A stretch of 64,000 bases of DNA from Prorocentrum cordatum (lineage: Eukaryota; Sar; Dinophyceae; Prorocentrales; Prorocentraceae), in assembly GCA_963575745.1 (NCBI GenBank), contig CAUYUJ010015505.1, positions 798,396 to 862,395 on the forward strand, written 5' to 3'. Each line of letters starts with the position of its first letter. Position 1 is the stretch's first letter. Under the pieces are notes generated by a model. That model was given only the letters and a program-made list of their open reading frames with translations. It was not told the DNA's origin and ran no database searches. Shown piece after piece: positions 1,758 through 63,182 of this stretch. The position numbers and the translations under genes are program-made.

Positions 1758-1800
1758 CTGTGCCGAGGTCCTCCTCCGCGACGTTCGCCGCGTACAAGAC
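1758..1800 (-). CDS. ychF: ychF exon 11: G4 motif NVAE
   Basis: Encodes [18 protein letters not shown] is the NxxE motif that replaces NKxD and gives YchF proteins ATP preference. The acceptor is GCCAG before G. The 3' end is uncertain: a GC donor after CACAG (1758) fits the CAG/AAG habit of this gene, and 1764 is an alternative. I found no continuation between 1757 and the left edge, so the next exon probably lies outside. Confidence 0.88.
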
Positions 1801-4800: not shown

Positions 4801-5695
4801 GCAGACCAATACCGTTCTTCCAATCTCACTATCGATCTCGCAATCGATCTCATGATCGATCTCACCGCTGCGCCACCGACGGGACACCCCGCACCAGGGA
4901 CGGGACACCCCAGGCCACCGACCGGACCCCGCCGCGCCACCGATGGGACACCGACGGGACACCGCCGCGCCACCGGCAGGTCACCCCTGGCCACCGCGCG
5001 CCCGGGGGGGGGGGGGCGGACAACCAGCTCCACAGCCCCTGGCCACCGCGGCATCAGTCCTCTCGCGCACCCACGAAGCTTCGCCTCGCCCGCACGCGCG
5101 ACACGAACACGAAACCCAAACGGATTTCCGGGTGGGGGGCTCTCCGTTCCACTGCGATCTCACCCTCTCGCCTCCGACGGGCCCCTAAGAGCAACCGGTG
5201 CGGGGAAAGTCAAAAGGAACGAATAGGAGAAACGCCTCCAACCGACCACAACCACCACGAGGAAGAGAACCCCAATTCTGGAGACGATTCTGCTTGATGA
5301 GGCGACATCTTTGACTCCCAGCCCTTCCCTCCCCTTCATCCCCTTCCCCCCCTTCCTCTCGCCCCGCTCCCCTTCCATCCCGCCCCTACCCCCCTCTTCC
5401 CCATCCGCCGCACTTTCTCGCTTCAGCTCCCCCTTCATTCCCTCTCTCGCCTCAGGCAGTGCTGGTTCATCCCCTGCCCCGCTGGGGTGCTGCATTGCCT
5501 CCCGCAAGGGTTATACCACTGCCCCCTCAGGGAAACCCAACCAACCCTGTATGGCGTGATTGGTTTAGGGAGTCTCTTCTTCCATCTGAATAAACGCCCC
5601 CTCCCCCAGGCGGCTGGCACCCAACCAGGACCAGTGCCCCCCACCATCCTTGTGTCAAAAAGCAATACGAACACACACAAACACACACACACACA

Positions 5696-5730
<35 letters not shown>

Positions 5731-5742
5731 GCGAGCGAGCGC

Positions 5743-5787
<45 letters not shown>

Positions 5788-8700: not shown

Positions 8701-10882
8701 CTCCGCAACCCCCCCTCCTCCCCCTCCCGCTCTGGTCGCCCAATGTTGCAGCGAGCACTCGGGGTCAGGGTATGGATGGGGGATGGAGAACTTCACACGC
8801 GTGCCGCGGCCCTTGAATGTGTCACGATGTTATTGGAAGTGTCGGCCAATTGTCCAAAAAGCCTCCAGAGGCTTCCAGAGAGTGAAGAGGAGGAGGAGGA
8901 GGAGGAGGAGGAGGAAGAGAAGGAGGAAGGGCTGCCTCCTACTATCCGTCGAGGGCAAGGGTTCGGGGTGTATCCTTCGAGGGGAGCAGCGGGCTCCTTA
9001 AGAGCGAAGGGCCCCCTTGTAGAGCCATGGCCCCGCACATCTCGTAGATGGACGCCACCCCCCAATCCAACCCTTTCTGCCTTCCGTCAATGAAATGCTC
9101 TTGACTGTTTGGGAAGAGAAGAATGGAGGGAGGGCAGGTGTAGACACCACAGCGACGGTGCATGAGCTGGCTGCCTTCTTCATGGTGATCAGGGAGAACT
9201 TTTTCACCATTGCCTGCTCGTCCTCGTTGAGGTTCGTCGAGCGCGCTGGCTTTGAGCGGTCATTTGAACCGCTGGCCGCTGCGACACTGCCAAAACCGTG
9301 GCTGACTTCGTCAGACTGGCGAGTGCGGCCACGGCTTCGCTGATGGGTGCTGTTGGACAGAGACAGCAATGAAGGCTTCACTCCTCCTTCTCTGCTCCCC
9401 TCTTCGGCTGCATGCGGGTTTCGAGGGGTGACCTTCCAGACCCAGCAGCGGAGCAGCATGAGACGGACCGCCGCCAGTGTGCCACAGGAGGAAAAGGAAC
9501 GTATACGGAGGCGAGCGTGGAGCGGAGGCATCGCAACGGAATAATCGACCACTATGCCCGCTTGCACGTTGAGGCTCGGTGTACTTCCGAGTGCTGTGCG
9601 GCAAGGTTGAAGGGGCCCACGGACACACAAATAAATACACACACAAATAACAGAGTTCCCCATATTTTCAGATACTTCCTGGGTTTTTGTCTTCCCCCCA
9701 CTTCCCATATGTTCCAATATCTTCTGGGGAATCGACGATCAATCCTGCCTGCGTGTTCCTTTCCCCCCTGAAAAGTTTCTGTACATCTTCTGACCAGCAC
9801 GGGTCCGGAGGGAGAACGGGCCCTGGGCCCTGGGAGCTTCCCCCGGGAACACCTCCTCATCCCGAGTCGTTTTCTGACAGTCCCAGGGCCCGTGGAGGGC
9901 CCCGGGAGCCCGAGAAGGACGGAAGACCCCAGGACCCGCTTCCCTCGGGGAAAAGCGCGCTCCGCTACTCGCAAAGTCACTGCCCGCAAATGGCCTGGAT
10001 CCACCGTGGGGGATTTACGATGTACTCCACAGAGGAGGCCACGCTTTTTTCGGACGTTTGCGAGTAGGCACTTTGCGAGGAGTGGAACGCGCTCGGTGAG
10101 CCTCAGGAACCGCTTCCCCCATGGCGATTCTCCCATCAGCTCGCACTTGCCGGCGCTCCCGGGGGGCAACCCTTCAAGGCTCCCAAGACGGCCACGGAGG
10201 GCCACCGAGGCCGCCGAGATGGCCAAACACTGCCCCAAGGAGCATCCCACGGCAAGGGAGAAGATACCGCGAGGCGCCAAAGGAACTCCAGCGCCGGGAA
10301 GGCCAAACCCGTCAAATACAGTCAACCCGTATAATGAGGACGCACGATACGGATGACGGGCGCCGCTGGAAGGCCATGTCGACACTCTGCGAGCGGGGCG
10401 CGGCCAGCGACAGCGGCCAAGGATGGGCCGAAAGGGAAGGATGCAATGGGTAACCTTGGAAAGTCGCTCATCCTTGCTATGCAGGTTGATTGCAACCTGA
10501 AGAATTAGGCTTTGAGCAATTGTCCTGTCCCGAACCTCCCGGCTCAAGATGGTTCACCACAGGGGCCTTGGAGGAGTCCGAGGGAGCCCCCACGGGCCCA
10601 GCAAGGGCTCCAAGATACCCCCACAGGGCCCCAAGATGGCTCAGGAGGGCCCAGAAGTCCCCCAAACAGTCACAGCAGACTCCCCCGACAGCCTAAAGCG
10701 GCACCAAGAGGGCCCAAGAGTCCCAAGAGTACCCCAAAAGGGCCCACACAGAAGCCCACGACACCTCCAGTGGCGGAACTCGTCGTAGGCAGCCGGATAT
10801 GGATGCTGGGCTGAATGGGAGCTAGGATGATGATGGTGATGGTGATGGTGATGGTGATGGTGACGATGATGATGATGATGAC

Positions 10883-10958
<76 letters not shown>

Positions 10959-11463: not shown

Positions 11464-11517
<54 letters not shown>

Positions 11518-14183: not shown

Positions 14184-14222
<39 letters not shown>

Positions 14223-15300
14223 ACATCCGCCGGCCCCCTTGTGGGGCCACCAGGCTGTAGGCGCGGGTTCGCAGTTTCCTGTACCAGTTGTAGCTTGTAG
14301 TTTCCAGTGTTACAGTTCTGCTTCTTGCTGGTTACTGTAACTAGTTGATTGACCGCGCGAGGGGGGGGGAGGCCCAAAGCGGAACTTTTAGCACCCCCTG
14401 GGCGCGTTGTCTGAATTGCTGGGGGGGCTCGAAATCGACACCCCTCACGCAGATCCGCGGGGTCAGGGTCCAAAAACACAAGGTATTTGCAACATTTCTG
14501 AAATTCGTTGCCACCCTCACGCAGATCCGCGGGGTCAGGGTCCAAAAACACAGGGAATTTGCTACATTTCTGAAATTCGGTGCCACCCCTCACGCAGATC
14601 CGCGGGGTCAGGGTCAAAAGCACAGGGTATTTGCACCATTTCTGAAATTCGGTGCCACCCCTCACGCAGATCCGCGGGGTCAGGGTCCAAAAACACATGG
14701 AATTTGCTACATTTCTGAAATTCGGTGCCACCCCTCATGCAGATCCGCGGGGTCAGGGTCCAAAAACAAATAGTATTTGCCACATTTCTGAAATTCGGTG
14801 CCACCCCTCACGCAGATCCGCGGGGTCAGGGTCCAAAAACACCAGGGATTTGCAACATTTCTGAAATTCGGTGCCACTCCTCACGCAGATCCGCGGGGTC
14901 AGGGTCCAAAAACACAGGGGATTTGCTACATTTCTGAAATTCGGCGCCACCCCTTACGCAGATCCGCGGGGTCAGGGTCCAAAAACACAGGGGATTTGGC
15001 ACATTTCTGAAATTCGGTGCCACCCTTCACGCACATCCATCGCAAGGCGTGGTACCCCAAACTGCGAGAACTCCCTCGGCCCTTTAATCGCAAGGTGTGG
15101 TAACCAAGCCGGTAAACCATACACGTCTTACCAATCGCCAGGTGTGGTAACCCCTCTTGTGATCAGTTGGTTTTGCTGATTGCGAATCGGCTTCGCATGA
15201 AGTTTCGATACTGCTTCACGACAGCGCCAAGCCTCATGACTTAGCTCTTCCATGGCCCATTCTCCGAGAGAGGGGGCCGGCGGCAGGGGGCGAAGCCCTT

Positions 15301-15342
<42 letters not shown>

Positions 15343-21300: not shown

Positions 21301-24300
21301 TCTAAGGGCGGGCACGCTGGCTAGCTGCGTTTTCAAAGCGAGGCCAACATGTTCAAAGCCGCCCGCCCTCCAAGCGTGAAACTGTTGCAAACCTCTTGGA
21401 CGACTGCGCGCGGCTCCAAAGCGAGACCCACATTCTGAACACCACCCGCCCTCCATCCATGACACGGTTGCAAAGATGTTAAGCGAGTGTTCGCGGCGCT
21501 AGGGCGACACCCGCATTTTTAACATGGCCCGCCCTTGCTTTGGTGGAACGGCTGCACGCTTGTCAAACGAATGCGCGCGGCGCTGAGGCCAGAACCATAT
21601 TTCCCAACCATCCTGTGGTGTTGAGCCCTCGTTTTGAAGAGACGGTGCCCCGAGTCTCTCCTCCTTCCTTCCTTCCTCCTCCCCCTCCTCCCTCCTCCCT
21701 CCTCCCCCTCCTCCCTCCTCCCCCTCCTTGCCTTTGCTCTCGGCACACCTCTCACACATTTCGTAGCCCCATAGGGAGCTCCACCGAAGGTCCCAGTGGC
21801 ACAGCCCGCATGCGTCCGCCACACCCAGCACAGCGCTTCGTGGCCCCATGGGGAGCTCCACCGAAGGCCCGAGTGGAGGGGGGCGCATGCGTCCACCACA
21901 CCCAGCACAGCGTTTCGTGGCCCCATAAGGAGCTCCACCGAAGGTCCCAATGGGGGGGGGGGCGCGCGCGATAGGGAGCTCCACCGAAGGCCCCAGTGGA
22001 TGGGGGCGCATGCGCCCGCCACACCCAGCACAGCGCTTCGTGGCCCCATAGGGAGCTCCACCGAAGGTCCCAATGGGGGGGGCGCATGCGTCCGCCATAC
22101 CCAGCACGGCGTTTCGTGGCCCCATAGGGAGCTCCACCGAAGGTCCCAGTGGAGGGGGGCGCATGCGTCCGCCACACCCAGCACGGCGCTTCGTGGCCTC
22201 ATGGAGAGCTCCACCGAAGGCCCCAGTGGAGGGGGGCGCATGCGTCTGTCACACCCAACACAGCGCTTCGTGGCCCCATAGGGAGCTCCACCGAATGCGT
22301 TGCTCACAAAGACGGTACTAACAACCGCATATGGTTGGGTCCTTCGCCAAGCAAATTTGAAAACGGCCCGCCCTCCAATCGTGAAACTGCTGCACATCTC
22401 AAGCTGCAGAATCACACATGGTGAAAAAACCTCAGGCGAAACACCCAGCCCACTAGGAGGAGGAGGAGGAGGAGGAGGAGGAGGAGGAGGAGCAGGAGCA
22501 GGAAAGCAAGGAGGAGCCGGAGGATTCTGGAGGAGGAGGGGGCAAAGGATGGAGGAGGAGACGGAGGAGGATGCGGGAGTAGGAGGAGGAGCATGAGAAT
22601 CAGGAGGATCCAGGAGGAGGATGAGGAGGAGGAGGAGGAGGAGGAGGTGGAGAAGGGAAAGGAGGAGGGTGCGGGAGAAGGGTGGAGGAGGGGGGAGGAG
22701 GAGGGAGGAGGAGGAGGAGGAGGAGGAGGAGGAGGAGGAGGAGGAGGAGGAGGAGGAGGAGGAGGAGGAGGAGGAGGAGGAGGAGGAGAGGGTTTGGCCC
22801 TGGTCCTGATTCCTGGAAGAAGGAGTTCCAGCACTTCTGAGACCGAAAGAGGCCTGACCCCAGGCGTGTGCCTTCACTTATTACTTCTTTTGGCACCGCG
22901 CCCACCATTCCTTCAGAACCCAGTGGCATAGACGGGCCAGGGCCCAGAGGGGCCAGGCACGAGTTCTTCTGAGACTTCGAGCAGCGGCACTTCTACTTCA
23001 GGGACACCACTCTTCGAGCATGGCGGACCGCCAAGCTCGGGGTGCCAGGTTTTCAGGCCCTGGGCTGGACTGGACCTGCATACCCTGTGGGAGGCACGTC
23101 AAAGGTCACCATTGGCGCTGCTTATGTGGTACGACTTTTGGCAGGAATGATAACCTTGCGAACCCGTTCCCAGGTGGAGCCCACTTTGACCGTGGACAAG
23201 ATGGGAGAGTTCGAAGCAGGCGCTCCCTATCCAGGCCCCAGGCCGCTCGTCAGAAGGACTCAAGCAGCAACAACAACAAGGCAGCTCATGACATCGTTAA
23301 GAAGACCGTCCTCATCACTAGAGCTGACATGATGAACATGCCGCAAGCTGCCAAACATGTTCAAGAGCCGCCCTCGGACATCAATGAATTGCGCAAGTTC
23401 AAGCGTCATAATCATGGGCGCATGCTCCGCCTCGCCAGACTCATTCTTGCGACGCGCGTCGCAGGGCACTCATCCACAGAAGCTGAGCTGGAGTTGGCAG
23501 TATGCAAGCTCATGCAAAGCACCGCAGAATCGGTTACGAAGCAGCTGCATGAATTACATACCAACAGGGACAAAGTCATTGATCGGTTGAAGATCATAAG
23601 AGAGAAACAACAACTTCTACTGGAGGAAGAGAAAGGTTATGAGAAAAACTTGGGGCGTCTCCAAGCCAGTATTAGTGAGTTGGAGGACTTAGACGGTGAC
23701 CAAGGGTACGAGGACTGCGATGAGGATGACGACATGGGCGAGTATAGTGGAGGAGTAGCTATCAACACGCCAAGGGCCAGATCTCATCCTGCTGGAGCAG
23801 CGCCACCTGAGGGATCAGCTCCTGTGCAGCCTCCTGCTCCGCCACCTGCGGCGCCTCCTCCACCACAGCGCGCTCCGTCCCAGGCCAATCTTGACATCCT
23901 CCTTGCTGGTATGCACACCCTGATGAACCATATTCAAGTGCAGTCACAGGCGCAAGAAGCTCAACAGAAACAGATAGCGGAATTGACCAATGCTGTGGGG
24001 TTTATCTCAAGGGCTCAGCGCGTGGCGGGGCCCCCAACTCCGATTATTGCGTCGTCGACAGCAGCAGCAACTCCCGCGTGCATGCCAGTACCATCGACTC
24101 CACCAACATCGAGAAGGCCTTCATCTCCTCCCCCAGTGGAAAGGCACGCTCCTACCTCGCCTTTCCCACCTGCCCAGCGCACCCCAGAGGGAGAGCAGGT
24201 GCCGACAACTCCGATAGCTCCGACCCCGGGACCAGCAGCATCAGCGACAGGAGGATACTCCCCACCGCTCGAGATGATCGATCAGCCACTACTGGCGCCG

Positions 24301-27300: not shown

Positions 27301-30300
27301 GGGAGATTTCCCCCTTGGGCCCCCACAAAATTGAGTGCGCACAGGCGTGCGAAAAGTTTCGGCAGATATTAGGAGACGTTCCCTTATCACCCTGGGGTTG
27401 CGAACTTAATCAGCATTGCCATGACGTCTCGGATTGCATCACGCAGACGGCCCATTCATGCTTTGCTCTCACCAGGCGATTACCCAATAAGGAGTTCCTG
27501 TCACCAGATGTCATGGACATGCTACGTTTAAGGAGAGGAGCACAGAGAGCCATCAGAAAATGGTTCATGTCGGCGCCTTGCGCTGATGCTAAGTTATCTG
27601 CCCATCTTGTATATCTGTCTCACTTTGCTTCTCGCCTCACCTCAGGCGATCTCTCCAGTATCAACTGTCTAGCCATGCCTGCCATGTTTGTCTCCTTGGA
27701 TCAGTTGCTTCGCTTTACTGCGTCACTATTTCATCAGAGGCAGCTGCGCAGTGAGGACCTTGCGGTGAGGATCACCCATTTCGTCGCCAACAGCATGGGC
27801 GCAGTTAGGGAAAACATTGAGCATGATCATTCCGGGTTTCTCGCTAGCATGGCTGACCAAATCTTACTTTCCGCGGATGCCCACATGCCCAGGAATGAGT
27901 GGTTTCATATTAACAGACTCCTGGCCATTGGGGGCACATCCAGGGGCCCTTCCTTCTCCTCCAACGCTATCCCTGTCATGACTGACGAGGGGGGGTTCAG
28001 ATCCCACTGAGCGTCCAGACGGCTCGGGTGGTCCTAAGATTCTCAGCTCACTCGAACAGGTTGCTCAGAACATGCAGAGGCACTTCTGCAAGGTCGAAAA
28101 GGGTCTCGACGCGTGCATATCAGGCATGTTGCAAACCTACAATCAGCTGCCTGACCTCCTCAGCAGCGTTGATCAACACTTACTCAAATATGTTCCCACA
28201 CCTCTCGGCTTGCGGCGCCCCATGCGTGCCTTCGGAAGGGCAAGGCCCCAGGCATTGATGGCATTCCCAGCTGTGCGTTCAAGATTGCCCCCCATGCAGC
28301 GGTCTAGGTTATTGGGGCCATTACTGGTTAAAATCACGCTTGGGGGCAGAGAACCGTGTATCTTTAAGCTTGGGGAGGTGGTTTTCTTCTACAACGGGTC
28401 TGGGGCTCCCTCGATTGCCAAAAACCAGCGCAATCTCATACTAGCCAGCACTCCCTGTAAACTTTACCACAAACACCTACGGTCTCTGGCGCACGATTTT
28501 GTCGCGTCCGCCATGCTTTGTGAACAATGCGGCGGGGTAGGGGGCAGGGGTGCAGACATGATCACACTTGCAGTTCGCGCGTTCCTTAGGCACTGCATTC
28601 GCAGCCGAACCTCGGGGAGTGTTATTTGTCTTGACCTGGTCCAGGCCTTCTATATCACTATTAAGCAGATTGCCTTAAATTGCCTGGGGATGACGATCGG
28701 CTATCAGAGGCGCTTGACCAACTTTCGCTCCCCCCGATCGTTGTCCAGGGAGTTAAAGCACAGCTAGCTAGGCAACCCCTCCTGGAAAATCACTTTCCCA
28801 GGGATGAGCTCCCAGCCCTCATTCAAGACAAGCAGAGAGGCACCCATTAGAAAGTCAGGGGCGCGAACGGATTTGTTGCACCTTCTCTTGGCTCTCGACC
28901 AGGCACTGTTGCAGCAACAAGCATTTTCAACGCGGTGTTTCGGCAGGTGCATTTGGACATTCGGCAAGGCACCCAGGCCATGGGGCGGCCCTGGCAGGAA
29001 GCGCGCGACGCTCCGCCACTCAAGCTCGCAACGGACAGGGGTTGGGACACGGCGTTCACGGACCTTTCGTTTGCGAATGATCTCACGGTCTTGCTGCCGC
29101 TGGTCAACCCAGCTGCAGCTGTGGAGTCTGATCGCGACCTCGCAGATAATGTCTTTTGTGCTGCCGCCTCCGCTGGTTTCTCTATACATGACGCCCACAC
29201 CAAAGTGATGATTTCGCTCAATGGCAAGGGACCCCGCGTCGCTCTACGCAATTTACCAGGCAAGGCCATTACTGGCATAACTTCGCAGCGTTGGGGGTTT
29301 TCCTTTCCCACCGCACAGATTCACAAAATACCCGGCAGCCAAGTGTCGGCTGATGGGTCCCTGGGTCCTGACATGCAGGCTCGCGCCGCCAAAACCCACC
29401 TGGCACTTCGGCCCGTCCGTCACACTGTTCCCCCCCGCGCTACTTCCTCATCCGTTCTGTTTTTTGGGGCCCCCGTCTGGGCGCGACTTACTGCTGCACA
29501 GTTCAGGAAGATTCAAGCGACTCACCTTGCTGTTTACCGTGTGGCCTCAGGATTGCCCTCCTCTAACAATGCCGATAACCATCTCATTAATGCCAGAGTG
29601 CTTTTGGATACCAACCGTCTTCCCACTAAGGTCGTCCTTTCGGTTGGGCGCTTGCGCCTTCTGGGCAGAGTCTCGAGGCAGGCACCTCCAGTACTCAGGA
29701 CGCCCCTGGACCTAAATTGGGATGACCCTTGAGGATGGCACACATGAGTTCGTGCTGACATGGAGTGGCTACATTTCTTTGTCCCAGAATGGCCAGACCC
29801 TAGGGAGGGGGACGAAGCTTGGATAACATTGGTCAGGAACGGCGCCAGAGGGTTCAAGCGCTCACTCAGCAGGGCCATTGACAAGGCCAGGGGGTTTCAT
29901 AGGGACCAAGCGCATCTTGAGGTTTGGCGCCACAGGCTCCTGCAGGCTGAGCTGGCCCCTCAGGGCACCGCAGGCCCCCCCCCCCCTCCCTCGGAAGGAT
30001 ATAGTTGTCACGAGTGTGGACATGTTGCTTGCAGCGCGCAGCAGTTGAGCGCTCATGTGGGCAAGGTGCACAAATCATCTCTTTCACCCAACAACATTGC
30101 CACATGCACGCTTTGCCAGGCTTGCTTACGTGATTTTCGACATGTCACACGCCTGGTTAAACATCTTGCGAACGCTCCTGCTTGCAAAATTGCATGGCGC
30201 TCGTCAGGACACCTACCATCCTCAGAAGAACTGTTGCAGGCACGCCAGGAAGCCAAGGTTGAAGCAGCTCTCAATAGGAAACAAGGGAGGTAGGATTGTT

Positions 30301-33300
30301 TCGCTGCGCTCCCTTGGCTTCAATGTCAAGGGCCACCGATTGCCCCCAGACGCCCTGTCACCAGAAGGCAGCAAGTTTCCTCCCCCCCTGCTGCCCCCCC
30401 TTGCGTCGAGCAGCCTAGGGTTGAGGCCCCTCGGAGACCCCCCGTTCGGCCCCTCAAAGTTGTCTTACACCTATTCGGAGGCTCTCGTTTCCAGGGGGGA
30501 CTTACAGGACCACTTCGACAGGATGTTGGCGCTCTTTCCCACGAGGTGTGTCGGGCTGAGCATTGGGGGAGAGCACCCCTCGCCACTGGCGAATTTCGAG
30601 GACGACTCATCTAGTTATGTCTGGCTAGATCTAATCAGAGCAGGCAGGGTGGCTGGAGTTGTTGCGAACCCCCCCTCTCCAGGACCTGGCTCTCTGGTGG
30701 CCAGATGCTTCATCCGAGGGAAGGGGTCCCTTGCCCCCTTCGGGACCCCTGCCACCCGTGGGGGTTGGGGGCCCTGAGCAGTGCCCAGAGCGAGCAGGTC
30801 CACAACGACAACAGACTGCTGCGCTTTTCCGTTCTTCTGCTTTACGAGGCATACAAATATAACATTCCTGCCATCCTCATTAATCCGACCCAAGAGGAAG
30901 GAGGCGCCAGCTCACCAAGCGTCTGGACCCTGTCTGAGGTCATCTTGCTCGAAAAAATGGATGGGGTCCCGAAGCACACCTTACATCAATGCGTGTTTGG
31001 TGCTAGAGCCCGCAGGCCCACAGCGTTGCTGACAATCCGGATGCCAGCTTTGGACGCGAGGCTACTGGACGTGCAAGGAGGGCTACGTTGCAACCATGAT
31101 TGGCACAATGATTTTAGCACTGACGACCTACCATTTCGGTGGAAAAGGGATGACGTGGCTCTCAGGCTGCCCACACAGTTGCTTAGGATTTTGGCCGCCG
31201 CCCTTCCCCAACATATTCGCGAGGGCTCCCCAGAGGCCCATCAAGAGCTCCGTAGTGGCTTCCCTTGGGGGTCTGCTCCTGGCTCCCTGGGGGCCTGCAG
31301 CCTGTCTTGGGACCTACGCAGGGAGGCAAGGCTACGTAGGAGGATTGACCTAGGTGTTGGAGTTGAATGGGAGCTCCCTCATGGTCTTCGCAGGTTCTTT
31401 GTCCCCATGGACCCCTACCTGGAGCCAACACGCACTGACTGCTTCACCCATCCTCGCAGGCGCCCTCCTAGCACCAACCCGTGGGATTTATGAATCCAAG
31501 GCTGGGCTCCCTTCTTCTCCCTCCCTGGACTGCAGCTCGCGCTTGGGAAGGACCCACACGCGAAGGTTTGCCCCAGCCTCGCTGGCTGGCGCTCGTGTTA
31601 CGCTCACGTTAAAAAGTAGTAACGTGTGGGTGCTGTACCTCGGGGTGCAGCGCGCCACTGGCAGTACCGTTGCCTCCTGTGTGAAGGCTCTTATTTTCCT
31701 AATTTTCTTGCCTGTCCTGTTTCTTGTTTCGCGCGCCCTCGGCAGTAGCACAGGAGGCGCATGTGTCTCCGCATTTCACCCTCTCACGTGATTTGCTCTG
31801 TCTTCCATTTTCTTTGCTTGCTCTCTCTTCCTGCTCTGCATAGGCTTCGAACCGTCCGCCTCATCGATGAATGAATGAATGAATGAATGAATGAATGAAT
31901 GAATGAATGAATGAATGAATGAGGAGGAGGAGGAGGAGGGGGAGAATGCCAGGGGGTGAGCTTCCTTGCCCTCCTCCAGGACGGCCAGGATCTTGTCGAG
32001 CACGTCGCTCTCCTCCTGGGCCCCCTTCACCTGCTTGTGGGCTGCGGGGTCCCGCCGCGGCCGCGGCGCACCGTCAGCCCGCCCCCGCCCCGTCCCCTCC
32101 GGGAGTGAGGAGGGCAGGGAGGCAGTGGGAGAAGGGGGGGGAGAAGGGGAAGCAGCGGGCAAGGGATGCTAAGAGGGGGGCGAGGGATGCTGAAAAGGAG
32201 GAGGGGGGGGGCGTGGGGAGGAGGGATCGATGGCTGGCTGGGGGCGCGCAGCACTCCCAGGCGCCGCTGGCTGACCCAAGGCGCGCCGACGAGCAGGGCC
32301 ATGAGCAGGGCGATGAGACGGGGCAGGCGGGACGGGAGAAGGGGGCGATGTGGACTCGAGGGGGAGGATGCGGCAGGAAGAGAGTGGAGTAGAATTGAAA
32401 GCTCGCGGAATCCTGTCTGTGCGACCTGCTTTGCTACGCTACTGCACCTTCCCATCGTGCACAAGAAGAAACGCATTTGGACTCTGAAGTGGGCCACTAC
32501 GAGCCTCACATGATACTATAGAAGGCGGGACCTTCGGCCTCCCAAGCAAGGGCGCTGGCGATGAAAGCAGCATGAGCATGACAAAGATCATGATGATAAT
32601 GCTGCGTTGACAAGGGCCCAAGCCGACGACGGCGAAGACTAGGAAGATGCCGGCCGTGCTCTGGACTCCCTTTGTGCCACCCTTCGTCGTATCGAAGATC
32701 TCTTATTAGGGGTGCCGCAGCTGATGGGCCTCACCCGGCGGGGTAAGAAACACGGCCGCCAGCAGTTGCTGGTATGATAGGGGTATTAAGAACAAGGGAA
32801 GGGGAGGGAGGAGGGAGGGAGGAAGGGGTCAAAATGACGAGGAGCAGGAGGAAGATGCGGAAGGAAATGCTTCGATAGGTATCCCGAAGTTCCCCATGAG
32901 CTCTGGAGGTCCCCAGTAGTCTCTGGAGGTCCCTTGAGTCTGGGGGTCCCCGTATGGGCTCTGGAGGTCTCCAGAGCATCTCGAGAAGCGGGCGCAGTGC
33001 GGGGCGCGCCTTGCCCCGAACGTCCTTGATCAGCTTCTGCTTCCTGTTCTCGAGCTGGGTGATGTCCGCGATGATCAGCTCCTCCCTCTCCTTCCGCCTC
33101 CTCCTCCTTTTCCCTGTTCCCTTTTCCTCCTCCTCCCTCTTCATTCTGCTTCTTCTCATCCTCCCTCTTCCCCCTGATCCTTCTGTTTCATCTCCCTCCT
33201 CCTCCTGTCCCACCAATTCCTTCTCGTCCCTTGTTCCCCTCCTCCTCCTCCTCCTCCTCCTCCTCCTCCTCTTCCTCCTCCTCCTCATCATCACCACTAC

Positions 33301-33561: not shown

Positions 33562-33887
33562 GCTTCCTCCTGCTCCTCCTTCTCCTGATCCTCCTCATCC
33601 CCATCCCCCTCCTCCTCCTCCTCCTCCTCCTCCTCCTCCTTCCAGGCAGCTCCAAGTTGATCGTCTCGATGTCGCGGGCGGGGTCGACGGAGCCTGGCGG
33701 CGAGGAAAGAAACGGGAGGACGGCGCCGACGGGGTCAGGACGCCATCGCCGTCCCAAGGCCGATTGGCCAAAGGGGAGGGGGCGCCGAAGGAGCGCAGAA
33801 GGTTGCGGGAGCGACTGGCGCCGCGAGTCTCTCGGAGAGCGGGGGTGGTTACGAGTCAACGGCAGCCACGTAGACAAGAGCAGAAGG

Positions 33888-33942: not shown

Positions 33943-33955
33943 AATGATAATGATA

Positions 33956-34000
<45 letters not shown>

Positions 34001-40000: not shown

Positions 40001-43000
40001 TCGCCAGACCGTCGACGTGAGTAATGTCGGGGTCCTCAAAGCAGCGGACCATATGCACGATGGCGTTCGTCTCGCGGATGTTGGCAAGGAACTTGTTGCC
40101 CAGGCCCTCGCCCTTGGACGCTCCCTTCGGATGGGATGGGGGAGAGAGAAGGATGCTGCTGATGATGAGCAAAAAGCGGAAAGGGGCGAACGAGGGATAC
40201 CGAAACAGGAACGTCATTGAAGAGGTGAGGGTTCCGAAAATCTGTACTGGAAATGTAAATGGAGACTTGCTGGTAGAACCGCGAACTCTCGTGAGCCGAC
40301 AGACCCTTCCCCCCAGGCAGCAACACAACGTGCCGCCTCTTTCCCCCCTCCCCCTTCCCTGCCCTGCTCCTCCATTTTTTCCTCCTCCTCGTCCTCCTGC
40401 TCCTGCTCCTGCTCCTGCTCATGCTCCTGCTCCTGCTCCTGCTGCTCCTCCTCCTCCTCCTCCTCCTCCTCCTCCTTCTCCTCCTCCTCCCCCCTCTCAT
40501 CATATCCTCATCCCTCCCCTACTCCTCTCTCTCCTCCTCCTCCCCCTGCTCAGCCCCCCTCTCCTCCTCCTCCTCCTCCTCCGCCTCCTCCTCCTCCTCC
40601 TCTTTCTCCACCTCCTCCTCCTCATCCTCCTTATCCTCCTCCTCGTCTTCCTCCCTCACCTCCTCTTCCTCTTCCTCCTCGTCCTCCTTCTCCTCCTCCT
40701 GCCCCCTTTATTCTCAATCTCCTCCACTGTGCGCATTGTTATGGGGTGCCAATCTGGGTTTGCTATCACTTGACTGCTGTAACTGCTGCCAACTTCTGTC
40801 TCCGCCCATGTTTTCACGTAGCGCGAGCCCCGCTGATTTCAGCAAGTACATCCCGCACTGGGAATCCGAGGTAATCCTTCCACTCCTGCTTCACCTCTTC
40901 TTCCTCCTCCCCTCCCTCCCTCCATCCCTTCTCATTCTCCTTCTCCTCCTGCCTCCCCCTCGTTCTCCTCCTCCTCCTCATCCTCCTCAGTCTTCGCCTC
41001 CTCATTCCTCCTCGTCCTCCCCCTCCTCATCCTGAGAGACATGCGACCTTCTAGCGCTGGCACTGCCGAAAGGAAGCGGGCCGTGCCTTGACCAGGCCTG
41101 CGATGTCTACGTACTCGATCAGCTCCGGGATGGTCTGGGCGGTAGGAGGGGATGGAAAGGCAGGGGAGGTTGCAGAGGCCGCGGGGGCGCGGGGGCTTGG
41201 GCTCGGCGGGGGCCAACGAAGGGGACGGCTGGATCGGGTGTCTCCCGGCCTGTCACCTCGAGCGGCCTGCTCCTGGGTGACCCGTTCGACTGCTGTCCTG
41301 CCACCTTGCCCCTCGGGTCGCATCGCGAGCGAAAAACCATGTCCGCATCCAAGGGCCTCGTGGGCCCTGGCCCCTTGTTGGAGGCCTGGAGATGGGCACC
41401 AACACCAACACCGAGATCGGGATCTTCTTTCCTCGGCGGAAGCACACCGCCGATACTGGTGTTGGTGCCAACTTCTACAGACGAGCGCGTTCCGCTGCTC
41501 GCAGAGTAACTGCTCGCACATGGGCTGGATCCCCCGCGGAGGATCTGCGATACACTACATCCAAGCGGACATGTGTGTTCTTTCGGACGTTTGCAAAGCA
41601 GGCACCCTGCGAGCAGTGGAGCGCGCTCGGTGATGCCAGACCGGCGACCTTTGACCCCGCGGACGCGGGGTGCCTCTTTCGCGGGTGCCCCGCGCGGACC
41701 GCAGCCGTGCAGCCGCGGATCCGCGGGCTCGCGCCCCCGGCTCGGGGCCGCGCGGGCGCGGCCGCTCGCCCTGGCACCGCGGCCGCGGCGGCCCGCAGGT
41801 GGTGCCGCCGCGAGCGCGAGGCGCAGGCGGGGAGCGCCCGTGTCTGGCGCGCGACGACGGCCGGTGGACTTCGCCAGGCGCGCGGGCGGCTGCTCGGAGA
41901 GGCTCCGCTCCAGGGCTCGCACGGCGCCTCTCTGCCTGGCGGGGGCTGGCTTTCGGGCGCCCTGGTCGTGCAGGTGGGGCAAGAAGGGGCCAGAGGGCAA
42001 GGGCGGGAAAGGCGTCGGGAAGGGCGTCGGGAACGTTGTGGGGTGCCTATATCGGGCCCAGCACGCTCGCTGCGGCTTGGTGGTGAGTTCCTTTTGTGGG
42101 AACCACCCACCGCGTTCGGGGCGCCGCTTCTCCGTGTCGACGCAAAGGTGTCCTGAGGCCCCCCTCCAACAGTCTTGGACACAAGCAGGGTTCCTGGCGT
42201 TGGCGGGGAGTTCGTGGAAATGAAAAGCTCAGCGAGCACATCCAGCATGATGAGTGTAGGTGGGCCCCCCCGCGCGTCCAAAGGGGAACATGAGACACCG
42301 TCTGCCCATGCATAGTATTCAAAACGTCGCTCATCTGCCTGGCGGCACTGGTCTCCGGAGCCCAGGGTGAAAATTTTGGGCTGACCCCCCGCGGAAATCC
42401 CCCTTTGACAAAAGGTTTCATGGTTTGTCTCTTGCGGGGAATCGCCGGTCAAAGAGGCCCGTACCATTGAACCGCATGCTCGTCTTGCCCGTCTGAAGAG
42501 AGGCCAAGACGGCCCAAGAGGCACCCAAGAGGCCTCCAAGACGGCCCCCAAACAAGAGTGGCCGAAGATGTGGAGCCCGTTACGGTATTCCGAACTCTTC
42601 CTCCCAGGATTCCCAGGATGGCCCCCGGGGAGCGCCAGCATGTCCCCAAGAGGCTCGAGGCCTCTCAGAGGCCACCAACAGGCCCCAAGAAGCCTCCATG
42701 AGGCCTCCAGGAGGCTTCCAATAGGCCTTTTGTCCACGACTCAGACGAGGTGGCGGGATGGGCCGAAGGCCAGTAGATCCGCCGCCCCTTTTTGCTTGCA
42801 AGAGGTGTGCGTGGTGTGCCCAATGCTTAATTCATTTCTCTCCTTGAAACAAGCCTCGCACTCAGGGGATCTTACGTGCATTCTCAAAACTAAGCGAGCC
42901 CCAGTGGCGGTCCAGCCAGCCCGTCGCCGCTGGGCCCCAGTGGCTCTCCGTCGCCGCCCGTCGCCGCCTTCCGTCGCCACCACTTGCATTCGTCCAGTGC

Positions 43001-52000: not shown

Positions 52001-55000
52001 GGTGTTGGTGGTAATCTTTCGGCCACCCAGAAAGCCCGAGCACTACCACCACCACCGAGATCGGGGTCACCTGCCCTCGGTGACACACCGCCGATGTTGG
52101 TGCTGGTGTCCGCTGCGATGCCTGCGCAAGAGATGCCCCGAGCAAGAGGACCCCGTTGGGCGCGGCTCGCCGATCGCCGCACGCGATGCGACGGTGGCGG
52201 TCCGTGCGCCCTGCGTGAGAGAGCGGCCCCGGGCTCACGAGCGACCCCGGGTGCGCGACTTCCGGGGAGAGGGCCGCGGGGAGGCCGAACACCAGAGCCC
52301 CCGAGCCGTGCCCGCCTGCCACCCCTCCTCCTCCCCCTCCTCCTCCTCCTCCTCCTCCTCCTCCTCCTCCTCCATCCGCTCCTCCTCCTCCTCCTCCTCC
52401 TCCTCCTCCTCCTCCTCCACCACCCTCTCCTCCCTCCTCCTCCTCCTCCTCCTCCTCCTCCTCTCCTCCTCCTCCTCCTCCTCCTCCTCCTCCCCCTCCT
52501 CCTCCTCCTCCTCCTCCTCCTCCGCCTCCTCCTCCTCCTCCTCCTCCTCCTCCTCCTCCTCCTCCTCCTCCTCCTCCTCCTCCTCCTCCTCCCTCCTCCT
52601 CCTCCTCCTCCTCCTCCTCCTCTCCTCCTCCTCCTCCTCCTCCTCCTCCTCCTCCTCCTCCTCCTCCTCCTCCTCCTCCCCTCCTCCTCCTCCCTCCCCC
52701 TTTCTCCCCCCCCCCCCCCTCCCTCTGGGGACCCCCACTGTGCCCGCACCGAAGGTCCCTCCGGCGAAAGGCCACCCTCACGTGCAGCCGGCCCCTGGGC
52801 CCCCCCCGAAGGCCGCGCACCGGGATGCCCGCCCGGCACAGGGCCGCTCGGCTGCTGCGGGACATGGCTCTCGTGGGGCCTCTGGCAGCCCGCCGCGCGA
52901 GACCTGCCAGGGCTGCACCTGCGAAATCGGGCCCGGGCATGGGATTCCAACGGGCCCCGTCTGGTCTGCGACGCGCCAGCTCGACGATAAACTAGCGGCG
53001 CCCAGAGGGGGGAGGCTTCTCAGAAGGAGGCTGCTTCTTAGAAGGCGCCGGCCCTACATCTGCTGCAGACATGGCCCGCGCCTTCTCTGAAGCAGGGGTG
53101 CTTCTAAGCTTCTAAGAAGCCTTCCCCCCTTTCCCTGCCCCCCTCTGCGCGTGGCCGCAGAAGGCGCCAGGCACCCTGGTGGCAGCCTGATCCTTCCGGC
53201 GCGCGGCGCGCAGGAGCCGGGCATCGGGGGGCGAGGTTTGGGGGGGGCCCCACGCAGGAGTGCGAGGGACCTCCGCGGAGCCCCCCCACGGCCTCGCTGC
53301 ATGGCCGCGGGAGCGCAGGCGGCACGGACTTTCGGCTGGGATCCAGTCCTTGCAGCAGACGACCACCGGCGGAGAGCGAGGGGGGGAAGTGAGAAGGAGA
53401 AGGAGGCCTTCGCAGAAGGCGATTGACTTCTCAGAAGCCCTCGCGCCTTCCGAGTGGTTCTCCGAGTGTTCGGGGAAGGCTCAGAACAATTCTCAGGAGC
53501 CTGGGGAACCTCCGAGCCTCCTGAGCAGGCCCGCCCCCTCTGACCTCCCCCCTGGGCTGTCCTGCAAGATCAAGCCGGTAATCATTTGGCAAGTGTGGGT
53601 TCTGGGCGCCCGTGGCACGGCTTCTGCAAGTGACCTGCATCCGTGAACGAGTGCGAGCAGGAAGCAAGGAAACTGTCGACGACGACCGTGCTGCTCCCTC
53701 CCTGGCACCCTCCTCCCCGCACGGTTTCACGGTTTCACAATCAAGGTCTGCAACGAGCAAGCTCAAAACAGGGCGACAGGGGTGCGGGAACCAAGGGGAG
53801 AGCAAGACCTGTCACGGACTCCTCCTCGCCTCCTCGGCGCCTAGCCCTTGGCTCCCCTCCTCCCCTCCTCCCTTCCTCCCCCCTCCTCTTCCTCCACCTC
53901 ATCCTCCCTCCTCTTCCCTGAGCAGCGCTGGGGAGTTGGCTGTGCACCTCCCGCGGATTGCACTGCCAACGCAAACTGAAGCCGCTACTGGTGCAGTCCA
54001 CAGCACAACCGAGGGTACTCGGTCATGCCCGCGTGGCAACCTGCACTACGACTGCCAGAATGGGCGGGCCGCCTTGGCCACGTTGGGGTCGATGGTGCAG
54101 AACGGGTAGTTTGCAGACTCTGCCGCACCTCTGGGGGCAATGGAGGGGAGAATGACAAAGGGGACGCGCTCCCCGAAGCGCCCCAATTCTGGATTCCGAG
54201 AGAGAGAGAGAGAGAGAGAAAGAGAAGGAGAGAGAGAGAGAGAGAGCGAGGGGGCGAGAGAGAGAGAGAGAGAGATAGAGAAAGAGAGATAGAGAGAGAG
54301 CTACAGGGATGGGATGGGGAGGGTGAGAGAGAGTTGGGTAACACATTGGAGAGCCAGTGCAATTTTGAAGAAAAGAACATCCAAATGGGCCGAGCACAAG
54401 AGAACAATAAAGGGGGACGGGGAAATCAGAGGGAGAGAGGGAGAGTCATGCGCATGGGGGAACGCGCGAGCGACAGGCAGAGAGAGAGAGAGAGAGAACA
54501 GAACAGGCTGCGACGGCGACGATGGCGACCTTGATGTCGACAACGGTGATGACGGCGACGGTGACGACGACGCCGACGGTTTCGGCTTCCCTGTCGAGGG
54601 ACGAACATCGAAAACAACAACACTCCCCCGTCTCATCTGGACAAAGGAAGGACTGACTTGCTTTCGATCTGTGCCGTCTCTGCGGTGGTACAAGGTAGAC
54701 GTGTAGAACCGTCGACGACGACGGCGTTGCCGACGGCGGCAACGACAGCGACATCGGCCACAACGGCGAACGAGGTGACGGAGGCGGCGACGACGACAAC
54801 GACGATGACGCCGGCGTCGACGCCGACGGTTTCGGCTTCTCTGTCGAGGGACGAACATCGAAAACAACAATGCTCCCCTGTCGCATCTGGGCAAACGAAA
54901 TACTGATTTGCTTTCGATATGTGCCGTCTCGGCGGCAGTACAAGGTAGAAGTGTGGAACCGTCGACGACGACGGCGTTGCCGACGGCGGCAACGACAGCG

Positions 55001-58000
55001 ACATCGGCCACAACGGCGAACAAGGTAACGGAGGCGGCGACGACGACGACAACGACGATGACGCCGGCGACGACGAATGCGACGGCGGCAACGACGGCGG
55101 CCTCGTCGATGGCGGTGGCGACGACGGACACGACAGTACTGGCGACGACAACGACGACATTGACGACGGCGACCCAAAATAACCCCCGAAATATACCCGA
55201 ACGCAACCCGAATGAATCCCCAAAGTGAGCCCCAAAACTGCACGAACAAAATTCGAACTAATTCAAGCTGAAAGGACCAATCCGTGGCCCGAGCCGCTCA
55301 CCAACACCCTACGCAACCGTGGCCAGGCCGCTGGTGTATTATCCACCCCATTGCCGTGGGTATCAAGTGGACAGCCCTCAAGGCCCTGAACATCATCAGT
55401 TTTGCGCGTTGAGGATGTGAGAAGGACTTCTCCTGAATGGCCACGTGATCGCTGGGCCGACCAATCTGCCCACCTTCCGGGCCTTGGCCGCCAGACACGG
55501 CGAACGATCCTGTACTTGCCTGGGCCCAAACGCACAAGCTCAGGTTAAACCAGAAGGCAGCGACCAGGCAAAGCACACGAGCGCAGACGCCAGCCCAAAA
55601 AACTTTTTACCAGCGAATCGGAACCCACTGGCAGAGTGCAGGGGGACGACGCGACACGCCGACGAAAACGACGGACGACAGACGAACGACGAGCGCGCGG
55701 GGCGGGGAAGGGGATGGAAGAGAGGGGGAGGGGGGAGGGCAAAGGAGGCGCGCCGGCCCGCGCCCGGACCAGCTTGCCCGCACAAAAACAATCGCACATG
55801 GGCCCGCGCAGGGATGCCGGAATGAGTGCGATGAAGTTGTGCGGGCCAGCCCTGCCTTGTCTGCCTGTCTGTGCCTCTGTGGCTGCCTGTCTGCCTGTCT
55901 GTCTCTGTCCCTGCCTTCCTCCACCGCCTCCCTCCCTCCATGCCTCCCTCCGTTTGTCCTTTTGCTCCTCTCCCGCTCCGATCTCTCCATGCCTCCCTCC
56001 TGCCCCCCGCCCCCCCCCTCGCCCGCACACCCTCCCAGACATCCGACGTCGCGATTCTTCCACAGGGCGGCCCTCCCAAAAGTCTAGACCCCTTCCCCAG
56101 GAACGGCAAGGCACCTGCTTTGCACCCTGAGTCGTTTGTGCTACGGCCACCAATCCGTGCAAGGGCCCCCGGAGGCCGACAATCACTCACCAGAACCTCT
56201 CGTCGTGATGTCTTCGCGACGTGATGATGCCAGGGTGCACTCTCCGGCCTCTTCCTGCCCCCGCCCCCCCATGGCCGCGACCCCCCCCCTCTGCCCCGTG
56301 GTGCGAGCGCGCGCCGACGCCGCAGAGCGCGTTGAAGAGCGTGCTCTTGCCCACGTTGGGCAGCCCGACGATGCCCGTCTGCAATCCGCGCCGACCCACG
56401 AGCCTGGTTAGCCGCCGGGGTCGCCCTCCTCCCCGCTTCCGACCACCCCTCCCCAGCGCATCGCTTAGCCCGCTGAGTGTGACGGCGTCATGGCCTTAGT
56501 TGTTACATCAAGTGAAAGACCGTCTCGGCATGCCCACCGCCGCGGGAATTTTGAGTACGAGGCTCTGGCGCCGACCCAACACCACCTTGTCTCACCGAGA
56601 CACGGAGCAGAGGACAAATTAACCACCTTGATTGTCTGGCACCCTGCAGGCCGTTCCAGTTGAACAGAAAAACTGCGCATCGCTTAGCCGATCCGCCGAT
56701 CCGCAATCCCCACTGGCATGGCTTGGGGCCCAATGGCCGACCCTTCCCCTTCCCCTTCCCCTCCTCCTCCTCCTCCTCCTGAATAGGTGCGGATCTGTAT
56801 GCTTTACGCTGCTCCCTTCGGGTCTCGCGGGGCCTGCGTGCCCCCCCTGGGGGCGGGGGCGGGCGGGGCTGAGATGCCGTGGCCCAGAGGGAATGAGGAT
56901 CGTGACTACCTACCAGACCACCCCAACCCAACCCGAAGACCCGCATTTCGGGTTCGGGGGGGTACGGGCTTCATATGTGCTTTTTTGTCCATGTTCCCCG
57001 ACCCCCCCTCACTGGAAATGGAGGGCACATCGGGGCCTTCGGGCTGGGTTGGGGTGGTTGGTTGGTGGGCGGTGAGGCCGGTCGCGAGGACAGCCTCGCG
57101 TCGTGGAGCACTCGCGACGGGATCTGGCTCGGCAGCTCTCGGCCTCTGGAGGCCCCGACCGGGCCCCGGGGCCGCCAGGTAACAGTGGCACGGGGCGAGA
57201 GGCCAGTCGCTGAGGGGAGGGGCCCGGGCCCCACGCCGCGAGAACAGCACGACGTCGGATGGCCGAGTCCTTCTCCTGCTCCCGGGTCCCCCTGCTGTGG
57301 GGGGCCTGCCCACGCTGCCGCTGCTCCTGCTCCTCGGCGAGCGAAGAGCGGTACGATCGTAAGCGTTCCCACCGTCGGGGGCGCGTCTTCCGGGGCGGCT
57401 GGAGCGTTGTCACCTTGCCGCCGTGTAGGGCCTGTAGGGGCATATACTTTTCGGCCGTCTCGTTGCAGCCGTCTCCGATGGCAAAGCAGCTTGTCGCATA
57501 CCTCCCGTAGTACGCTGATCTCCTCCCCCCTTCGCCTTCTTAATTGTTCTTCTTATTACAGTCGGGGCGTTGACATAAGGAACCCTAAATAAGGAACGGG
57601 GCCCCTTTCTCCCATAAGTTGAACTTCGATTTCCCATGGAAAACCTCAGGAAAACAGAAGGCAAATTGCAGCCCAATCAAGGAACACCGAGCCCCTCCCC
57701 AACGAAAAGGGTTCCTTCTTCAGGGCCCCGACTGTATGTGTTGTGTCTTCTTCTTCCCGACGGCGCCGAAACACGAAGGCCGCAGCGGGGCACTGAAGTA
57801 AAAAGAAGAGGATGAGGAAGAGGAGGAGCATCAGAAGGAGGAGGAGGAGGAGGAGGAGGAGGAGGAGGAGGAGGATGGGGAGAGGGAGCGGGAAGCAAAC
57901 AACAACATGTTGTTCATATTACTCCTTCTCTTTCTGCTGCTCCCGCTCCCCCTCTCGCCCGAAGGGTGGAAGTGAGCCCTGGGACCCCCAACTGCCCAGC

Positions 58001-61000
58001 TGCGCACGGACGTCTACCAGGCGTGCGGACGGACGGGGCGTCCGAGCCGCCGAAGCCGGCGCCGCCGCCACTCCCTGCGCGCGACGAGCCGTCAGCGCGC
58101 AACGCGGTGCCCTCGAGAGCGCACCCTCCAAACGGAAGGGGCGGCAGCAGCTAAACGCATGGCCCGCACCTTCCAGCTCGCAGCGGTGCTCTCCCGCTAA
58201 GAAGACGGAACCACGACGGGGACAAAACAGGGGATATCTGAGGTCCGGCGGCTCTGGAAAATCCATCAGGCGCCGCGGCCGTTCCAAAGAGCTCCAGGCA
58301 GCTCTGAGAGATCGATCCGGGACGCTCTGGAACGACCTATCCTGGTCCTGGGCCGGCCCAATCCGCCCTCGCCCTCACGTGCAGAGCGGTGCCCCGCACC
58401 GAGCCTCTTTCCACCTGTGCCTGGTGGTGGCCCTCTGCGGCCACGGTGGCTGCCATCACCCGGTCCTGCACTCGTCGTAGCGCTGCGCCGCTGCCGCAGA
58501 GGACCCTCGCCGTGGCTGCGACAGGACGGCGCTGGGACGGGCCTGCCCAGAGCTGCTGATCGCGGCAGGGTCGAATGAAGAGCTGAGACGCCTGATTGGA
58601 GCCCCTGCAGGCGACATCGGTTGACCCAGACGCGCCGCCTGCACCACATGGTGAGTCACCTGGTTCTGAGCAACGCAACCCGCAATGACGAACCCCGACT
58701 CCGAAGCAAGTCACTGGGTACCTGCCACGAGGCCCCAAGAGACGCAGAGCAAGTGGCGCGAGACCTCCCCGAAGCTTCCCCGAAGCTGCCGGAAGGGCTG
58801 CGGGGTAAGCTCGTGCCGACCCCCAGGTATGAGCGAGAAGCCCTGCGCCGTGCGGCCTCGGCATATGCCAGCGTGCCCTGCCCCAGGTCAGGGGCCGTCC
58901 TCCAGGCCTCGTCCCTGCTTGCAGCGCTTCTCCGGCATATTCGGACTTTTGCGCCGCTGCACTGAGCCCAGTGTTCCAGGTGTGAGCACTGCGCCGCCGT
59001 CTGTCTACGTGCTTCTCGTTGGTTGGGGTTCGAATGTTCGTTTCGCCTGAGCCCCTAGCTACGTCGATTAACTTATCACGACAGGTAGCCATGATGAACT
59101 CATCAACTGGTCCTTGCCACGTCTGATGCCAATCATGAGCCGCAGCTGAACCGCGCGCAACAGATGCAGGGAAATCCTGCTACTGTCTCTTCATCTAAAC
59201 GATCTTCGGCCATTCGGGCGATATTCGCTGTGGGGCTTGTCAGTCTTCTTCTCCTCATCAAGGCCTTGACTGGTTCTGGGCGGAGCTTGTTTTTTCCCTA
59301 GCCCTCTCCATGTGATGCTGTTCGCCTGAATGTGCTTTGAGCCTGAGCCGCCAGCAACTTCGACTGAAGATCTTGATGGTTCCACTATGGATTGTAGATC
59401 CTCCCTGACAAGTTGACCTGCGACGCTTTTGAACCTATCTCAAAAATGAGCCATGGCCGTCACCACTCGTCGACTCAAGATCTGGGATTTTGTCATATCT
59501 AGCTTGGTTCTTCCTTGGCCCTCTGCCTCGCGGTACCATTGGGAGTTTCAAGGTTAAGAGTTCAAGCTGCTGCCGAGCTAATAATAGATCTTGAAATATT
59601 CAACGTCGAGCCTGGATTTCCCCCTCGCCCTCTGCGTTGCAACGCCACTGAACCGATCCACGCCTCCAAGTCAAGAAGTCAGCCAGCTCCGCTTCAAGAT
59701 CATCATTCGCTCATCGAGGTGAAGGTCTACTCTCGTTCCCTGCATTGCGGCGCAACTGAACACAATAACCTCTTGAGCTCGAGCCGTCACAATCTCCGTG
59801 TCCATTGGCTCTCCGCTTTGAGCACCCCATCCAAGTCCTCCCTCGCTCACCCCTCATCCAGACAAGGGGTCAACAAGGGGAGGGGGCTGGAAGGTGGCTC
59901 GGAAAGAGAAGGAATATAGTGCATGGGGTGATGGCGAGGACTAGGAGGATGAGAGGACATGGTAATGACGACGAATACTGGCGACGATGATGGGGTGAGG
60001 AACAAAAATAAGGAGGAGGAGAAGGAAGACGAACACATACACTACGAAGGGAGAGACGGTATGGGGGGAGAACAACGGAGGAGAACAGAGGAGCAGGGAC
60101 GGATGCTGAGGAGACTGAGGAGGAAGACGAAGAAGGGACATATAGAAGGATCGTGCAGGAGGAGGAGAGAGACGGGGGCGGGGATGGAGTAGACGGATGA
60201 TGAAGCGAGGGTAGACAGCCTGGCGAGGACGGCGAGGAAGAGGAATTGAGGAGCGAGGACGAGGAGGCGGAAGAAGGACGGGGGCGATGCTGGAGACGAT
60301 GATGATACTGAAGTTAGGATGCTGGGGCCGAACTGTCTTACACCGTCCATGGGTGCGTGGTTGAAGAGGGGTTCCGCGGCGCGGGATCTTGTCATGGTGT
60401 ATCTTGCGTGGTTGGCGTCGTCACACAGAGAGATAGAGTAAGAGAGAGAGGCAAACAACAATAACAAATATAACAACAACAACCGACATAAAGAAATAAT
60501 GAGAGACAAAGAGAGAGAGAGAGAGAGGGCGTGAGAGAGAGAGAGAGAGAGATAGAGAGGGAGTGAGAGAGAGAGAGAGAGAGAGGGAGGGGCCAGGAGG
60601 GCACGCGGGGGAACGGAGGGGGAGGGACGGGAGGAGAAGGGCGCCGTTTCAGAGTCGGCAAGCTCTTATACGCAAGCTCCCGCGTCCGTGAGGTGAGAAT
60701 CTCGGCCTACCCCTTGTCCGGCGGCGCGCCGCGGCGCCAGTTCCCCCAGGGGTCGGCAGGTTCGCACGGGAGCCCACGGGCACGCTCCTGCACCGCCGTT
60801 CGGCCCGTGCGGCGGCTGCTCTGCACCAGGCCGAACGCCAGCGACGCCAGCCGGGCGTCGGGGAAGCGCCGCGGCGCGAATTCTCGGAGGAGGATCGCGC
60901 GCAGGTCGGCGGGCAGGGCGCACACGATCTCCTCCGACTCCTCGCTCAGGTCCCACCGCTGCAGGAAGCCGTCGACCTTCGCGGCTGGGCAGGCGGGTGG

Positions 61001-63182: not shown

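Follow-up and report, generated by a model that had tools for sequence, protein, structure and literature searches.

The 64,000-nt stretch analysed here (hereinafter designated the window) lies on contig C14656 of the Prorocentrum cordatum assembly, and it very probably carries the first two thirds (5′ part) of a functional nuclear YchF gene of bacterial type, probably a plastid or other organelle form, which would be read as one long pre-mRNA and whose last exons are detached from it by an apparent misjoin of the contig. Judged from its family scores and alignments, the minus-strand gene in the window is one conserved bacterial-type YchF ATPase gene. With at least 16 exons over more than 100 kb, about 1% of it coding, it provides a protein-verified case of a small housekeeping gene stretched in a dinoflagellate. 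The content, order and phase of the exons, the intact frame and the family are direct observations, whereas the sequence of events from pre-mRNA to product stays conditional. An earlier sequence-only reading of this DNA, which had reported a conserved gene spread over its length, was accurate overall and needs correction on annotation, length, the first exon and the presence of LINEs.

Ten core exons on the minus strand (e1–e10), running from window position 56403 to 1758, encode residues 2–214 of the YchF core; they are collinear with YchF, matched in phase and free of stops, as had been claimed. A putative first exon (e0) lies upstream of them.

63007..63182, minus strand: e0, putative first exon; donor CAG/GTGAGA; phase fits e1; peptide ...ASTI
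56315..56403, minus strand: e1, with the P-loop (G1) motif
54073..54128, minus strand: e2, with the conserved cysteine corresponding to C35 of E. coli
50787..50843, minus strand: e3
41087..41134, minus strand: e4, with the DxxG (G3) motif
40010..40124, minus strand: e5, peptide ...DITHVD(G), followed by the sole GT donor among e1–e10
33653..33693, minus strand: e6, peptide opening with the split (G)
33010..33081, minus strand: e7
31965..32030, minus strand: e8, followed by a 22,715-bp intron
9175..9249, minus strand: e9
1758..1800, minus strand: e10, with NVAE (the NxxE G4 motif), ending in a split (G)

Together with e0 these 11 exons amount to 838 nt, or 1.36% of 61.4 kb, in agreement with the roughly 1.3% coding content reported before; the ten core exons stand, and the recount of all 11 gives 279 1/3 codons where 276 had been given.

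Searching proteins with the joined model (120 matches listed of 7,994) revealed a 363-residue protein, P0001, encoded on a public intron-free contig of 1,178 nt. When spliced at G[CAT]-AG borders, with the exception of intron 13, e1–e16 reproduce residues 2–363 of P0001 at 362 of 362 positions. The relatives that come next, P0002 and P0003, are only 89% and 84% identical to it, and P0001 therefore most likely comes from the same species as the window gene. The P0001 contig is either a cDNA or a retrocopy, as 1.2 kb of it holds exons that lie more than 100 kb apart in the genome; its source tag (lgn) does not say RNA, and it would count as a transcript by its lack of introns. Because the 16 joined exons equal P0001, the gene is, as far as its sequence can tell, intact, almost certainly spliced and not a pseudogene, and the earlier description of it as functional-looking is upheld by the same match and the intact frame. 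PF06071, the C-terminal TGS domain, occurs at four places in the genome (8 candidates, 8 scored), two of which are this gene's exons on a second contig, C2591, and two of which are OLA1-type. Neither a retrocopy of the gene nor another intact ychF locus, which the sequence-only reading had held up as a counter-case, is found among these four places, and a single copy is supported through the TGS domain, the part of the gene that this search covers.

The sequence-only reading had predicted the TGS domain to the left of the window. It does lie to the left by sequence, yet on C2591, which overlaps C14656. Exon 11 is present on both contigs, and exons 12–16 are found on C2591 only.

C14656:789142-789245: exon 11 (locus L005; window −9150 to −9253, about 9.15 kb left of the window)
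C2591:83365-83262: exon 11, second contig
C2591:69912-69847: exon 12
C2591:64339-64304: exon 13
C2591:62329-62240: exon 14
C2591:43212-43147: exon 15
C2591:42244-42158: exon 16, with the stop codon

The right end of C2591 (70440-87979) matches C14656 from window −22024 to −4536 at 98%, giving a 17.5-kb overlap that is identical over 4,965 bp holding exon 11 (−9500 to −4536) and over the outer 1,162 bp (−22024 to −20863). The remaining differences fall inside a 108-bp satellite, except for 15 columns located in a TA run, a GGA run and a triplet repeat. Left of window −22024 (C14656:776371; C2591:70440) the two contigs diverge next to a G-rich repeat, with no N within 3 kb on C14656, and the break does not coincide with a gap of N; at its other end, C2591 stops 4.6 kb upstream of exon 11. 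The peptides of e12–e16 are absent from the six frames of 244 kb (10,000 N) even when one third of the residues may differ, nor is there a TGS exon in 140 kb to the left of the window, of which 5,000 are N (in L013 and L014). The simplest reading would be a single locus, in which C14656 has a misjoin 22 kb beyond the left edge of the window and the TGS exons are left behind on C2591. Transcripts were among the data used to scaffold the published P. cordatum assembly (PMC10666404, cited here and below from portions of the article). Contigs can thus be linked by matching spliced exons to a public sequence free of introns, and here this exposes an apparent assembly misjoin.

The different continuations of the two contigs past −22024, where the adjoining 3 kb hold no N, and the lack of a TGS exon in those 140 kb with their 5,000 N would also fit a window copy that is a truncated duplicate or pseudogene, with the working 3′ end on C2591 and the 17.5 kb a true segmental duplication. 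We consider this very unlikely, as outside tandem repeats there are zero differences in 4,965 + 1,162 bp, as P0001 needs e1–e10, which are found only here within the fetched 244 kb, and as C2591 terminates upstream of exon 11 in the way a contig end would. The placement of exons 1–10 and 12–16 on different contigs likewise admits two separate loci whose pre-mRNAs are trans-spliced into one mRNA. The addition of a spliced leader is not known to link two halves of a coding sequence. Trans-splicing of a spliced leader does occur in dinoflagellates (PMC11453091, in the portion of the article that treats it), but the contigs share 17.5 kb including exon 11, plain continuity explains the arrangement, and we therefore judge trans-splicing unnecessary and its probability slight. 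A real break, with the gene in two pieces that share a duplicated 17.5-kb exon-11 segment, the mRNA joined from both pre-mRNAs and intron 13 a true GC-AC intron, is highly improbable.

The gene encodes a protein that scores 478.1 bits (P0001) against TIGR00092, the model of redox-regulated ATPase YchF, and its window part (the e0–e10 model) still reaches 295.5 bits at a cut-off of 279.2, bearing out the claim of one conserved YchF gene. P0001 contains both PF01926 and PF06071, the latter with 124.5 bits at residues 279–362, a portion encoded by exons 13–16 on C2591, outside the window. Among solved structures its best match is the bacterial YchF 1jal (419 bits), compared with 297 bits for 2ohf (GTP-binding protein 9), which we take to be human OLA1, and bacterial YchF structures are also the top structural matches of the joined window pieces. 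Alignment of the joined exons to YchF and OLA1 proteins, the check that had been proposed, accordingly has bacterial YchF as its best match. The bacterial proteins 1jal and 8kie, presumably from H. influenzae and E. coli, respectively, align with P0001 over nearly the whole core (residues 3–362); unlike the P. cordatum gene, bacterial YchF has neither introns nor an N-terminal extension.

The nucleotide-binding motifs are spread over the exons, with the P-loop GLPNVGKS in e1, G3 as DIAGL in e4 and G4 as NVAE in e10, where N206, V207 and E209 are invariant across the 22 rows of the alignment. YchF proteins have NxxE instead of NKxD at G4, and C35 is the redox cysteine of E. coli YchF, in which C35, C140 and C168 are named (PMC8779481, from portions of the article). 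C34 of P0001, encoded in e2, is invariant in the same 22 rows and lies opposite E. coli C35 in an alignment that used an E. coli YchF sequence; P0001 keeps this cysteine only and has L139 and I167 at the other two positions. GC3 of the coding core is 0.887. YchF proteins elsewhere prefer ATP and associate with ribosomes, and by analogy the product is expected to work as a ribosome-binding ATPase that adjusts translation under stress.

The NxxE motif and the domain order are common to YchF and OLA1 (PMC8779481, in part), which could suggest a cytosolic OLA1 instead of a bacterial- or plastid-type YchF. We regard this assignment as very improbable, since bacterial YchF outscores OLA1 by about 120 bits and the genome has a compact OLA1-like gene of its own (L001, C15609:253039-253287 region), which is separate from P0001 in the tree. 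The matched stretches of that gene, 867 and 252 nt long and about 200 bp apart, span about 1.3 kb, and two members of one universal family in the same genome thus differ roughly eighty-fold in gene length, the YchF gene being the longer. A further TGS exon or fragment of OLA1 type (L002, C1338:56665-56784) has no obvious gene joined to it.

Several lines of evidence place the bacterial-type YchF exons beyond coincidence. An E. coli YchF sequence gives clear minus-strand matches to the window in collinear order, motif scans of the window recover the P-loop and NVAE exons, and each peptide of e1–e11 occurs once only, with zero mismatch, in the six frames of 244 kb (10,000 N). A tblastn search with P0001 yields 10 matches of at least 30 bits in the window, whereas none of 20 shuffled P0001 queries and one reversed query reaches 30 bits there (best 26.9). 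That the core exons are short (41–115 nt in the window) and lie far apart might suggest a chance patchwork of ORF fragments resembling YchF, or contamination by bacteria, a notion we dismiss as virtually impossible given the failure of the shuffled queries and the exact 362-residue match of the spliced exons, and given that we know of no bacterial gene with such introns.

Measured from coordinates, the composite gene spans about 106.8 kb from e1 to the stop codon and about 113.5 kb from the putative e0, both values being approximate because intron 11 holds a satellite and its length is itself approximate. The earlier span of more than 61 kb therefore holds for the window, and the whole gene is longer, at about 107–114 kb. 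The intron lengths are as follows.

Introns 0–5: 6603, 2186, 3229, 9652, 962 and 6316 bp
Introns 6–10: 571, 979, 22715, 7374 and 10907 bp
Introns 11–15: 13349 (on C2591), 5507, 1974, 19027 and 902 bp

The donors of introns 1–15 comprise nine GC, four GA and two GT, leaving 13 of 15 that are not GT; all 15 agree with the G[CAT] donor of dinoflagellate spliceosomal introns. Acceptors end in AG in 14 of the 15 introns and continue with G in 12, and the e6/e7 border can be slid, as GAGCTG is repeated at both ends. The one exception among the acceptors, intron 13, has a GC donor and ends in AC (gcggac/ACC; acceptor at C2591:62330, L023), with no AG in the last 30 bases ahead of exon 14 and no room for extra residues in P0001; it may be a GC-AC intron, or the assembly may be in error at the acceptor.

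These features resemble the published P. cordatum introns in donor mix, AG-G acceptors and multi-kb lengths: for strain CCMP1329, portions of PMC10666404 give 51.4% GC, 24.7% GT and 23.8% GA donors, 79.7% AGG acceptors, a mean intron of 4,709 bp and a mean gene of 24,462 bp. Against those means, this gene is large, with introns of about 7 kb vs 4.7 kb and a length of about 107–114 kb vs 24.5 kb. The published genome is 4.15 Gbp in 22,724 scaffolds with a GC content of 59.7% (PMC10666404, in part); the assembly used here has 4.13 Gb in 21,875 contigs, and the GC content of the window is 59.2%. Non-GT borders and long introns are already established for the P. cordatum genome, of which this gene is a large example; despite its size it is ordinary for a dinoflagellate, and no new biology is needed. 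New here are the apparent contig misjoin, the possible GC-AC intron, the plausible organelle-targeting first exon and how sharply the gene differs in length from the compact OLA1-like one. The sequence-only reading had expected the gene to go unannotated by any GT-AG-only gene finder; it need not be unannotated, as the annotators of P. cordatum modified their gene finders for GC and GA donors (PMC10666404, in part). That article does not mention YchF in its main text. A simple terminal-inverted-repeat test does not identify introns 0–10 as introners, since in 0 of these 11 introns did terminal inverted repeats exceed shuffles (17–96 of 100 shuffles were as high).

A single, very long pre-mRNA would be transcribed across the whole gene, and its introns, mostly GC-AG and GA-AG, would be removed by the standard spliceosome, as for other genes of this genome, leaving a YchF mRNA with about 1.1–1.3 kb of coding sequence, to which the identical intron-free contig points. 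The product would go to the plastid or another organelle if the putative e0 is part of it, and, to judge from its family, would act as a ribosome-associated ATPase. Introns averaging close to 7 kb and containing tandem repeats and other DNA, a pattern typical of the published genome, would account for the length of the gene.

The N-terminus is the most tentative part of the model. The reading frame of e1 runs upstream of the P0001 start, and because RRGLQTG or RGLQTG recurs in homologues (RRGLQTG in P0123 and P0125), e1 begins before that start; the e1 residues before QTG and the e1 acceptor lie outside P0001 coverage. The hydrophobic stretch of e0 is placed 53 residues before GLQTG, compared with 48–55 residues in seven (P0121, P0122, P0124, P0125, P0126, P0133 and P0141) of the 16 homologues that have an extension and 30–113 across all 16. 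Those seven homologues have more residues ahead of the hydrophobic stretch than e0 has, and the e0 frame is open for 29 codons upstream of its ATG, so that e0 may be an internal exon instead of the first. Hydrophobicity alone does not single out e0, which ranks 22nd of 210 ATG ORFs of at least 40 codons in the 47.6 kb upstream. For the N-terminal exon proposed earlier (63182–63007), the phase fit and the strong donor hold up, and no homologue of model residues 1–70 is found at E ≤ 10 among 429 candidates. We consider it plausible, from these sequence features, that e0 is the true first exon and a possible organelle-targeting leader. A search of about 47.6 kb for an alternative short start exon ending in ATGCAG gave one candidate, which was not convincing.

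The relatives of the gene were compared in a tree of 70 rows. Of these, 40 were assigned to dinoflagellates from their search rank (P0124 and P0155 alone carry a species name) and 9 to cyanobacteria from their name or rank; the others are 5 bacterial proteins, 14 of 80 loci from a further search, the OLA1-like protein of this genome and an E. coli sequence. The 40 dinoflagellate-labelled rows group together (88/99), with P0001 among them, and P0001–P0003 form a subclade with five others (96/87), in which these three are long-branched (0.62) and so set off from other dinoflagellate relatives. In the 22-row alignment, all 11 dinoflagellate-labelled rows other than P0001–P0003 are 63–68% identical to P0001, including P0124 (67%), whose source name is Durusdinium trenchii; P0155, ychF of Symbiodinium sp. 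CCMP2456, was outside this identity alignment. Dinoflagellate YchF proteins share the domain order, along with the RGLQTG junction and the N-terminal extension in rows that start far enough upstream.

Among the 120 matches listed for P0007, the first with species names to follow the dinoflagellate-like rows are cyanobacterial, which suggests, at the level of sequence similarity, a plastid-type gene. The best bacterial matches listed for the window model are Lachnospiraceae-like, with Bacillota, Rhodobacteraceae and others also present. Drawn from the OLA1 row, itself a very long branch, the tree places the dinoflagellate rows outside cyanobacteria and other bacteria and gives no support for a cyanobacterial origin of the P0001 group. 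By description, Arabidopsis offers a parallel to P. cordatum in having a nuclear bacterial-type YchF beside a second EngD gene: EngD-2 (At1g56050) is a chloroplast-localised YchF related to alpha-proteobacteria, and EngD-1 is related to cyanobacteria (PMC4263083, from portions of the article).

The introns hold tandem arrays, both within the window and to its left.

14439-15038, 21760-22295 and 54565-55075: satellite arrays in the window; units of 73 bp (8.2 copies), 77 bp (and 123 bp) and 250 bp (2 copies)
About −20775 to −10984, left of the window: 108-bp satellite of about 9.8 kb (L007 9225-10000 and L006 1-9016)

The 108-bp satellite lies in intron 11 in two orientations, its last 21.6 copies running opposite to the first 62. 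Of the LINEs and satellites that the sequence-only reading had seen in the introns, the tandem arrays are thus present, and LINEs are unconfirmed: no transposon family was found in nine window open frames, one of which had a sub-threshold zinc-finger match, or in one typed piece, leaving room for diverged elements. Rfam gave 0 matches, and window 60001-63500 had no match in a phage collection. On the plus strand at about 28.4–28.8 kb, an ORF piece near 28573, with no Pfam match, gives the impression of a diverged retrotransposon reverse transcriptase. An 80-codon open stretch on the minus strand of intron 0 (60737-60976), likewise with no Pfam match, presumably resembles a motif recurrent in dinoflagellate proteins.
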